Origin: Blastococcus mobilis
GTDB lineage: Bacteria; Actinomycetota; Actinomycetes; Mycobacteriales; Geodermatophilaceae
DNA: 64,000 nt
NCBI RefSeq assembly: GCF_900188025.1
Contig: NZ_FZNO01000023.1
Location: 1 to 64,000 of the forward strand
Reading direction: 5' to 3'
Shown: positions 23,119-64,000 of the stretch, in pieces
How the letters are laid out: the number at the start of each line of letters is the position of its first letter
How positions within the stretch are numbered: the first letter of the stretch is position 1
Program-made: the position numbers and the translations under genes
The notes under the pieces: model-generated
What the model saw: the letters and a program-made list of their open reading frames with translations, nothing else
What the model was told of the DNA's origin: nothing
Databases searched by the model: none

Positions 23119-23888
23119 CTCTCGACCCACCCCAGCTCTGCGTGCCGCCCCTCTCGCGGGGACGGCTCCTCATGGACCCGGCAACTGGGCGCAGGTGCGC
23201 CCGGCGTCGGTGCGGTGTTCATCGTGCCTGCTGGAGTCCCCCGGGGGGAAACCCCGTCCCTCGATGAGCTGGTCCTCCCCCTTCCCGGGCAGCACGGCGA
23301 GCTCGATCCGGTGCCCGGATCCGTTCCTCGCTGCGCTCCTCCTGGGGCTCCCAGGAGCAGCGTCCCCACCCAGAGTGGGGTTCGAGAAACTCCGAGATAA
23401 CTCCCTCATCCTCGTCATCACGGGTGTGGATGTTGGGGATCGGGCTCGTTCGTGCTGGTCAGCGGCCGGTTCGCCCTGTTGGCCTCTTGTGGGTGGTCAG
23501 CGTCCTCCTGTTGTCGACACGTGGACATCTCGACGGCTGTGCACCGTCGCCTCGCCGTGTCCACCCTGTGTCCCCTGTGTCTCCCGGCTGCATCCCCAGG
23601 TCGTGCCCAGGTCCCGGGGGCGACCGCCCACCGGGATCGCGGCCGATCGGCGGGCGCGGCAGCATCGCTGCAGGTCAGCGGCCTGTCACGACCGTCGACC
23701 CGGGGTGCGGGGCACGGTTCGCGGGCCGAAGTCCGATGACCGGCCGTGACCCGCCGGGCACGGGATCTCCCCAGCCTGTGCACATTCCTGGGGACAACTT
23801 CTCGATGAGTCGATGACGGTCACCGGTCGGACACCGGTGGCTACCGCGTTCGTCGAGGGCACTGCCTGTGTCGACATCTGTCCACCGC

Positions 23889-23897
23889 TGTGGACAA
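23889..23897 (-). promoter_or_regulatory. Exact DnaA box in oriC
   Basis: TGTGGACAA on the plus strand, reading TTGTCCACA on the minus strand, which is the consensus DnaA box of high-GC actinobacteria. A degenerate box follows 13 bp later (TGGGACAAC). Confidence 0.75.
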
Positions 23898-23914
23898 CTC
23901 CTGGGACAACAACC

Positions 23915-23957
23915 CTGTCGTCCTCCGGACGGCCCCGCGGCCAATGGCCGTCCCGCA
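23915..23957 (-). repeat. Repeat family 2, copy 3, inverted (oriC-dnaA)
   Basis: On the plus strand GTCGTCCTCCGGACG followed by CCCCGCGGCCAATGGCCGTCC. Aligned with the inverse of copy 1 it keeps GTCGTCCTCCGGACG, CCGCGGCCA and CCGTCCC with only a few changes. Confidence 0.5.
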
Positions 23958-24067
23958 GGCCGTTGAGCCGTTGAGTCGCGCCTGCGCGGACCCTCCGGGC
24001 CCACTCGGCACGACAGGTGCCGTCCCCGACCCGCTCGGAGCCACTACCCCCGACCGGTGCGGTCCGG

Positions 24068-24125
24068 ACGGCCCCGTCCAGGGAACCGCCCCGAGCGCGC
24101 GAGGGGTGGGGAGGGCGGGGTCCTT
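24068..24125 (-). repeat. Hairpin repeat family 1, copy E (after dnaA)
   Basis: Begins at the dnaA stop with AAGGACCCC on the minus strand. The outer stem CCCCG/CGGGG is short and the centre (CCCCTCGCGCGCTCGGGG) is itself a hairpin. A diverged member of the family. Confidence 0.6.
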
Positions 24126-62087: not shown

Positions 62088-62543
62088 ATGAGCACGATGA
62101 AGCTCATCCTCACCCAGGAGGTCACCGGTCTCGGCTCCTCCGGGGACACCGTCGAGGTCAAGGGCGGCTACGGCCGCAACTACCTCCTCCCCCGCGGCCT
62201 GGCCATCGTGGCCACGCGAGGGGCGGAGAAGCAGATCGAGTCGCTCCGCCGGGCGCGTGCCGCCCGGGACGTGCGCTCGCAGGAGGAGGCGACCGCCGTG
62301 GCCGGGCAGCTGTCCGGTCTCACGGTCCGCGTCCCCGCCCGCGCCGGTGAGGGCGGCCGCCTGTTCGGCCGCGTCACCACCGCCGACGTCGCCGCTGCGG
62401 TGACCGCTGCCGGTGGCCCGGAGCTCGACCGTCGCCGGATCGAGTTGCCCAGCAGCATCAAGACCACGGGCGAGCACACCGTCACCGTGCGGGTGCACCC
62501 CGAGGTCACCACCAAGCTGACGATCGAGGTCGTCGCCGGCTGA
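62088..62543 (+). CDS. rplI: 50S ribosomal protein L9
   Basis: A 151-residue two-domain ribosomal protein: N-domain MKLILTQEVTGLGSSGDTVEVKGGYGRNYLLPRGLAIVAT, a connecting helix, and a C-domain with EGGRLFGRVTTADVAAAV. The ATG at 62088 or 62097 could be the start. Last gene of the operon, followed by a hairpin terminator. Confidence 0.96.
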   Translation: MSTMKLILTQEVTGLGSSGDTVEVKGGYGRNYLLPRGLAIVATRGAEKQIESLRRARAARDVRSQEEATAVAGQLSGLTVRVPARAGEGGRLFGRVTTADVAAAVTAAGGPELDRRRIELPSSIKTTGEHTVTVRVHPEVTTKLTIEVVAG

Positions 62544-62655
62544 ACGAGCACCCCTCTGTGAGCCGTTCGTAGCAGGATCCCGACCTGGGTTCCTGCGCAG
62601 GCTCGGGCAGGCCCCGGACGGGGCCGCGCCACGAGGGGGCCGCTCTGCACCGCCC

Positions 62656-62691
62656 GGAAGGGGCGTCGGACTCCGGTCCGGCGCCCCTTCC
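62656..62691 (+). terminator. Terminator hairpin after rplI
   Basis: Arms GGAAGGGGCG (62656-62665) and CGCCCCTTCC (62682-62691) pair perfectly, extended inward by CGGA/TCCG across a T-G wobble. No T-tract. Confidence 0.8.
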
Positions 62692-62981
62692 CGCGTCGTG
62701 GGGCCCGTAGGTCCTCTGGCGGCGGTCGACGGTGCCTGCCAGCCGCCGTCCCGCGCAGCTCGGCGCCGGTCGCCGACCATGCGGCATCTGTGGACGTGTG
62801 ACCGTTGGGACGGGTGGGTCCTGGCCGCGACACGCCGGGACGCGACACCCGGCGTTTCCCCAGAATTTCTTTCGTCCACACCCGGTGCACGGCCCCCGCG
62901 CAGGTCAGCGGCGAGACAGGCGGCACAGCCCACCTGTGTCCCCTGCTGTCTCCACATGTCGACACGTCTGCGTCCACCGAC

Positions 62982-62990
62982 TTGTCCACA
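62982..62990 (+). promoter_or_regulatory. Exact DnaA box upstream of dnaB
   Basis: TTGTCCACA, followed by AGTTGTGCA. The surrounding stretch also contains GTCGACACGT and CGTCCACCG, resembling oriC sequence at 23512-23528. Confidence 0.65.
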
Positions 62991-63102
62991 AGTTGTGCAG
63001 AACCGGACGCACACCGGTGTTGGACTGGTCCGTCCGCTGTTCCTAACGTCCTCCCCAGCGGTTAGCGGAGCGGTTCTGTCACTGCCCCGGGCTAGCTTCT
63101 AC

Positions 63103-63118
63103 TCGAACATCCGTTCGA
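63103..63118 (+). promoter_or_regulatory. LexA-type SOS box upstream of dnaB
   Basis: TCGAACATCCGTTCGA matches the actinobacterial SOS box TCGAAC-N4-GTTCGA, with the symmetry extended by AC/GT on both sides. It lies 98 bp before the dnaB start. Confidence 0.7.
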
Positions 63119-63216
63119 GTCAGGTGTACGTCGTTCTGGTGCTTCCCCCACCAGGCCCCGGCCGATCGGTCGGGGCCTGTTCGCGGGTGCGCCGGTGAGT
63201 GGATGGAGGAACCACC

Positions 63217-64000
63217 GTGGCGGTGGCCGACGACTTCAGCCGGCCCTCAGCGACGGCGCCGGCCTACGACCGGCAGCCGCCGCAGGACATCCCCGCGGAG
63301 CAGTCCGTGCTCGGCGGCATGCTGCTCAGCAAGGATGCGATCGCCGACGTCGTCGAGGTGCTCCAGGGTCCGGACTTCTACCGGCCGGCGCACCAGGTCA
63401 TCTTCGACTGCATCCTCGACCTGTACGGCCGCGGCGAGCCCGCGGACGCGATCACCGTCGCCGCCGAGCTCAACCGCACCGACCAGCTGTCGAAGATGGG
63501 TGGCGCGGTCTACCTGCACACCCTCATCGCGTCCACGCCGACCGCCGCCAACGCCGGCTACTACGCGGCGATCGTCGCCGAGCAGGCCGTGCTGCGGCGC
63601 CTGGTGGAGGCCGGCACCCGCGTCGTCCAGCTCGGTTACGGCGCGGCCGGTGGCAAGGGCGACGTGGACGACATCGTCGACCGGGCGCAGCAGGAGATCT
63701 ACGACGTCACCGAGAAGCGGATGAGCGAGGACTACTCCCGCCTCGAGGACATCCTCCAGCCGACGATGGACGAGCTGGACGCCATCGCCTCCCGGGGCGG
63801 GGTCAGCCGCGGTGTGCCCACCGGCATCCGTGACCTCGACGAGCTCACCAACGGCCTGCAGGCCGGTCAGATGGTGGTCATCGCCGCTCGTCCCGGTGTG
63901 GGCAAGAGCACCCTGGGTCTGGACATCGCCCGGTCGGCCTCGGTCAAGCACCACCTGCCGGCCGCCATCTTCTCCCTGGAGATGAGCAAGCACGAGATCA
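63217..64000 (+). CDS. dnaB: Replicative DNA helicase DnaB (5' part)
   Basis: The N-terminal 261 codons of the replicative helicase; the gene continues past the window. Domain: IPAEQSVLGGMLLSKDAIADVVEVLQGPDFYRPAHQVIFDCILDLYGRGEPADAITVAAEL, then GVPTGIRDLDELTNGLQAGQMVVIAARPGVGKSTLGLDIARSA with Walker A intact. No intein is present at the Walker A site, a common insertion point in related genes. GGAGGA six bases before the GTG supports the start. Probably loaded by the DUF721/DciA-like protein. Confidence 0.96.
   Translation, partial: MAVADDFSRPSATAPAYDRQPPQDIPAEQSVLGGMLLSKDAIADVVEVLQGPDFYRPAHQVIFDCILDLYGRGEPADAITVAAELNRTDQLSKMGGAVYLHTLIASTPTAANAGYYAAIVAEQAVLRRLVEAGTRVVQLGYGAAGGKGDVDDIVDRAQQEIYDVTEKRMSEDYSRLEDILQPTMDELDAIASRGGVSRGVPTGIRDLDELTNGLQAGQMVVIAARPGVGKSTLGLDIARSASVKHHLPAAIFSLEMSKHEI

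Follow-up and report, generated by a model that had tools for sequence, protein, structure and literature searches.

Replicative helicases are usually regarded as constitutive, and the DNA upstream of dnaB in the soil actinobacterium Blastococcus mobilis raises the question of whether the supply of this helicase is linked both to replication initiation and to DNA damage. We analyzed a 64-kb window (the whole stretch of DNA under study, 64,000 nucleotides) of the 5.09-Mb genome, for which a sequence-only reading had proposed joint control of dnaB by DNA damage and DnaA. At the level of conserved sequence organization this proposal has good support, but the damage input does not appear to be LexA alone, with a PafBC-type promoter lying beneath the LexA box. 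With a probability of roughly three in four, the sequence at 62.9 to 63.2 kb would constitute a two-promoter dnaB control region composed of a DnaA-tuned promoter P1 and a promoter P2 governed by PafBC and LexA (Table 1). Both of these predicted promoters had previously been overlooked.

Organization of the dnaB leader

The gap between rplI and dnaB measures 673 nt (62544-63216), close to the 670 bp proposed before, and no Rfam family was found in it. The hairpin sequence behind rplI is found again at this place in most same-genus genomes and, as a putative terminator, probably sets dnaB apart from the rpsF-ssb-rpsR-rplI operon. It is followed, in 5' to 3' direction, by DnaA-like words, the exact DnaA box, the weaker TTGTGCAGA, P1, P2, the LexA box, an untranslated region with a second hairpin, the ribosome-binding site, and dnaB. 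In an alignment of 12 same-genus leaders, extended stretches between 62936 and 63118 are invariant.

Table 1. Features of the dnaB leader and its surroundings (window coordinates).
Feature	Position	Strand	Basis
oriC region between dnaN and dnaA (comparison only)	23131..24125	.	gene order and DnaA boxes
rplI (ribosomal protein L9), upstream neighbor	62088..62543	+	Pfam PF01281/PF03948
Hairpin 3' of rplI, 16-bp arms, 4-nt loop, probable terminator	62656..62691	+	inverted repeat, 94% complementary
Upstream DnaA-like box TCGTCCACA, 1 mismatch	62872..62880	+	(C/T)GTCCACA conserved in genus (alignment)
Conserved block with DnaA-box-like words and P1	62936..63059	+	BLAST match in family genomes
Conserved word CTCCACATGTCGACA	62950..62964	+	invariant in 12/12 same-genus genomes
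Exact DnaA box TTGTCCACA	62982..62990	+	family and class conservation of TTRTCCACA
Second, weaker DnaA-like box TTGTGCAGA	62993..63001	+	invariant in 12/12 same-genus genomes; predicted DnaA assignment
P1, housekeeping (sigma-A)-type: TTGGAC 63020-63025, 18 nt, TAACGT 63044-63049	63020..63049	+	predicted promoter activity
P2, PafBC/RecA-NDp-type: TGTCACTG 63077-63084, 8 nt, TAGCTT 63093-63098	63077..63098	+	family conservation
LexA operator TCGAACATCCGTTCGA, over expected P2 start site	63103..63118	+	consensus match, family conservation
Strong hairpin in 5' UTR between LexA box and dnaB	63152..63177	+	repeat and fold
Ribosome-binding site GGAGG	63205..63209	+	GATGGAGGA conserved in same-genus genomes
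dnaB (replicative helicase), GTG start, continues beyond window end	63217..64000	+	Pfam DnaB, DnaB_C; conserved start

The hairpin in the 5' UTR (around CAGGCCCCGGCCGATCGGTCGGGGCCTG) is identical in sequence in one relative (L274), while other same-genus genomes carry a different, weaker hairpin and its sequence is unconserved in most of them; such a structure between P2 and dnaB could provide a further level of control, e.g., as an attenuator. The N-terminal part of DnaB shares 89-98% identity with its closest relatives in Blastococcus and other Geodermatophilaceae. In several relatives (L012, L014, L016, and others) the DnaB match is interrupted near residue 242 and picks up ca. 0.8-1.3 kb further on, which, together with open frames of 800-1200 amino acids (888 in B. 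mobilis, whose own dnaB starts at 63217), suggests inteins in dnaB.

A putative LexA operator on a PafBC-type promoter

The palindrome upstream of dnaB had been described as a near-perfect LexA box and is stronger than that, matching the actinobacterial consensus TCGAACN4GTTCGA at all 12 specified bases. Its end lies 98 nt before dnaB, exactly as proposed, given the GTG start at 63217 with its conserved ribosome-binding site. It is the sole perfect match in the window, and pattern searches across the whole genome returned seven such sites compared to none for the reversed pattern. Three LexA boxes, one of them with 1 mismatch, precede lexA itself (Pfam LexA_DNA_bind and Peptidase_S24; L001:2826-2921), where they adjoin a divergent LysM-domain open reading frame, and the region upstream of recA combines a LexA box with 1 mismatch (CCGAACACCTGTTCGA) with the same PafBC motif as the dnaB leader. 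The boxes before lexA and recA identify TCGAACN4GTTCGA as the LexA motif of this organism. Besides LexA and RecA, the genome encodes an adjacent pafB-pafC-like pair of two neighboring WYL-domain genes (G000:C66:89492-90651).

Conservation was assessed in 81 family leaders, i.e., 80 named leaders from Geodermatophilaceae and that of B. mobilis. Absence of the palindrome from all close relatives had been named as grounds for giving up the joint-control proposal, yet CGAAC-N4-GTTCG is kept in 65 of the 81 leaders (0.03 in shuffles). All 65 share a spacer of 4, with other spacers occurring 0-1 times, and their central tetramers come in 25 different versions. An intact box is missing from the remaining 16 leaders, comprising Klenkia, Goekera, several Modestobacter, and a few others, in some cases due to one changed base; its absence from these lineages indicates that dnaB can do without control by LexA.

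RecA-NDp/PafBC promoters reportedly follow a consensus, ascribed to Gamulin 2004, of TGTCRGTG, 8 nt, and a TA-type -10 element. The B. mobilis dnaB leader differs from TGTCRGTG by a single mismatch. Within one mismatch, TGTCRGTG-N8-TA was detected in 73 of the 81 family leaders (0.33 in shuffles), exact matches in 36 (none in shuffles), and always with a spacer of 8. The distance from its TGTC to the LexA box amounts to 25-27 nt in 62/62 leaders that have both. Since the LexA box begins 5 nt downstream of the -10 element of P2, it covers the expected P2 start, and LexA would be expected to block this promoter.

In a different view, PafBC alone would drive damage induction, and the LexA box would be weak or a relic in decay. 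The PafBC motif is indeed commoner than the LexA box (73 vs 65 of 81), and whole lineages do without the box, with Klenkia, some Modestobacter, and Goekera, and most of the 16 leaders without an intact one, retaining a PafBC-like motif. Furthermore, mitomycin C induces dnaB in M. tuberculosis, where the gene carries a putative SOS box, depends partly on PafBC, and is still overexpressed in a recA-deleted, pafBC-depleted strain (PMC8151990). In most lineages, however, the arms of the box are perfect and its spacing is fixed while the central bases change, which argues for continuing selection on the box and makes a relic unlikely.

DnaA boxes at a predicted housekeeping promoter

Exact TTRTCCACA occurs in 71-72 of the 81 family leaders depending on which of two search lengths is used (0.12 in shuffles). 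Together with the pattern seen for the palindrome, this comparison indicates that the LexA box and the DnaA box upstream of dnaB are under selection. Across the B. mobilis genome, TTRTCCACA is found 10 times compared to 13 for the reversed control, i.e., without any excess, so that the significance of the box derives from its position and conservation and not from genome-wide counts. The DnaA box had been placed 110 bp above the LexA box; the box itself stands, and the gap is 112 nt. Any DnaA "cluster" depends in part on degenerate words, as the B. mobilis leader holds one exact box and family leaders have 0-2 boxes within one mismatch. Beyond the box, BLAST recovers the conserved block of Table 1 from 91 of 112 family genomes and from 86 of the 96 good ones.

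Downstream of these words, the strict P1 pattern TTGGAC-N18/19-TA[AC]CGT is present in 56/81 family leaders. The end of the DnaA box is separated from TTGGAC by 29 nt in B. mobilis and by the same distance in 46 of 55 measurable family leaders. As expected of a DnaA-regulated promoter, a conserved DnaA box thus stands at a fixed place relative to the -35 element of P1.

The resemblance of the leader to oriC is limited. TTGTCCACA has two exact copies in the window, one in the dnaB leader and one in oriC, and the proposed recurrence of neighboring bases is borne out by the 10-mer GTCGACACGT, which occurs exactly twice in the 64 kb, once in the leader at 62958 and once at 23513 within oriC. Beyond this 10-mer the similarity is weak, with a best local score of 36; 1 of 300 shuffled leaders and none of 60 other 995-bp stretches (best 35) reached this value. 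Compared with the dense DnaA-box array of an oriC, the leader offers one exact and one 1-mismatch DnaA box alongside this weak similarity. Its description as "oriC-like" appears overstated. A second origin or strong oriC homology at dnaB was rejected based on the weak similarity and the lack of a sharp GC-skew switch at the site. Elsewhere in the genome, two exact DnaA boxes on the same strand lie 18 bp apart and 53 bp upstream of a leftward open reading frame (L181:1569-1595; G000:C34:59568-59594), a possible further DnaA target in B. mobilis.

In a few relatives, the dnaB block, in some copies with P1, forms a separate module before other genes. In two genomes (L070:2215-2268 on the minus strand and L071:2059-2110 on the plus strand), a dgt-like dNTPase gene is closely preceded by a diverged version of the block with a perfect LexA box (TCGAACCACGGTTCGA / TCGAACCAAGGTTCGA), and a 27-amino acid open reading frame separates the two; the L070 gene has HD and HD_assoc domains, and the arrangement is an apparent promoter capture. 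A few Geodermatophilaceae genomes encode, behind a conserved hairpin, a membrane protein-like open reading frame of 53-73 amino acids (MKHR..., motif like TGSVxDGILAVSAVA). Copies were seen at L066:2069-2492 (-), L068:2466-2940 (+), and L069:1784-2200 (+) as well as in L072 (-) and L314 (-), and most of them are preceded by a duplicate of the DnaA-box block of dnaB, some with P1. This frame has no Pfam family above cut-off and was not found in the B. mobilis genome; its patchy occurrence (about 7/108 genomes) suggests a mobile unit.

The DnaA boxes might also serve in DnaA titration or as a DnaA-ATP/ADP control site near oriC, similar to datA or DARS, without any regulation of dnaB and separate from a LexA/PafBC promoter. 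Such a role would fit the distance of only ca. 39 kb between the site and oriC and the small degree to which its words resemble those of oriC. It does not explain the fixed 29-nt distance to a conserved promoter or why block and promoter occur together before other genes. In addition, the M. tuberculosis DnaA mutant I282T binds less upstream of dnaB and under-expresses this gene (PMC7738170). We consider a pure titration or control site unlikely.

Conservation beyond the family

The same motifs were searched upstream of dnaB in 60 Actinomycetes genomes from 32 families outside Geodermatophilaceae. Within 580 bp of dnaB, at least one exact TTRTCCACA was detected in 40 of these genomes (18 of 32 families), compared to 0.34 in shuffles and 1/60 in farther-upstream control sequence, and no other 9-mers are as frequent in these regions as those of the DnaA box. 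LexA boxes (6/60 genomes, 4 families) and exact PafBC motifs (9/60, 4 families) are rarer, with shuffles near zero for both. From these counts, the DnaA input on dnaB appears to be ancestral or repeatedly kept across the class, with a patchier damage input.

A chance origin of the motifs was rejected on the basis of shuffled sequences, counts of reversed patterns, and controls for spacer length and far-upstream DNA. A role of the palindrome as an RNA hairpin or terminator-like leader element, and not as a LexA operator, is very improbable and was rejected, because, although the B. mobilis sequence can fold into a stem of 8 bp closed by a loop of 4 nt, CGAAC/GTTCG is invariant without covariation in all 65 leaders having the box, non-pairing C/A (12) and G/A (6) combinations are found at the outer position, and the palindrome is the known LexA consensus that recurs before lexA and recA.

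A two-promoter model for dnaB

The sites, their conservation, their fixed geometry, and the presence of lexA, recA, and pafBC genes are established, and we infer protein binding, promoter activity, whether DnaA activates or represses, and an AND-type logic of P2. In the two-promoter model, P1 would act as a housekeeping promoter, and its DnaA sites would lie ca. -55 to -75 from the start, a typical activator position. This position and the phenotype of the mycobacterial DnaA mutant make DnaA most likely an activator of P1, where it would probably link helicase synthesis with replication initiation.

PafBC is activated by binding single-stranded DNA and then redirects the sigma-A polymerase, a mechanism known as sigma adaptation (PMC11804915). 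At P2, PafBC activated in this way would enable use of the promoter by sigma-A polymerase, and LexA would block it until RecA filaments trigger LexA cleavage. Bound at its operator, LexA may also act as a roadblock to P1. Together, the two promoters would provide dnaB with basal, DnaA-linked transcription and a damage-induced boost for replication restart. Because both damage sensors read single-stranded DNA, P2 would be expected to form a coincidence gate. More tentatively, and at somewhat less than even odds in our estimate, P2 may be a true AND gate that requires PafBC activation and RecA-mediated removal of LexA at the same start, ca. 50 bp below a DnaA-controlled P1, so that helicase supply integrates initiation and fork damage, with the DnaA input being class-wide in Actinomycetes.

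Relation to known systems and implications

Joint control of dnaB had been called unusual, but each input is known from mycobacterial dnaB (PMC7738170, PMC8151990) and the DnaA input also from Caulobacter (PMC8203912). The region upstream of dnaB is among the five most strongly bound by M. tuberculosis DnaA in vitro and by M. smegmatis DnaA in ChIP-seq (PMC7738170). As predicted for B. mobilis dnaB, the mycobacterial gene (M. tuberculosis Rv0057/dnaB, M. smegmatis) combines upstream DnaA binding with a damage input. These inputs come from separate studies and the SOS box is putative, whereas in Geodermatophilaceae all sites fall within ca. 140 bp in fixed order and spacing and, unlike in mycobacterial dnaB as reported, the LexA box of B. 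mobilis lies directly on the PafBC-type promoter.

Both PafBC and LexA motifs are present on some genes (PMC8223512). Mycobacterial recA resembles the B. mobilis dnaB leader as one damage gene with PafBC activation and LexA repression, both of them predicted for dnaB. It has a separate PafBC-dependent P1 and LexA-controlled P2 (PMC8223512, PMC11804915), whereas at B. mobilis dnaB the LexA box overlies the PafBC-type start and DnaA sites are present as well. Caulobacter crescentus dnaB likewise has predicted DnaA boxes upstream, belongs to the DnaA regulon, and shows DnaA-dependent transcription (Hottes 2005, as relayed by PMC8203912 and PMC7738170), but this organism is of a different phylum and these secondary accounts describe no LexA or PafBC input. 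In Streptomyces venezuelae, dnaB is not among the entries in the accessible part of the LexA ChIP-seq table (PMC9380542).

Our search of the literature, which covered open-access work and little of the subscription journals, returned no description of a LexA operator fixed on a PafBC-type dnaB promoter or of class-wide DnaA-box conservation before dnaB. With the separate inputs known from mycobacteria, what is new here would be the predicted overlay of LexA on the dnaB PafBC-type promoter and the finding that the DnaA box is conserved throughout the class, which suggests that the mycobacterial-type DnaA input on dnaB is general in Actinomycetes. The predicted P2 would offer a compact natural construct for testing PafBC activation and LexA repression on one promoter. 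If the two-promoter model is true, helicase supply would depend on initiation as well as on fork damage through a promoter region, conserved family-wide, at which the initiator and both actinobacterial damage pathways have sites.
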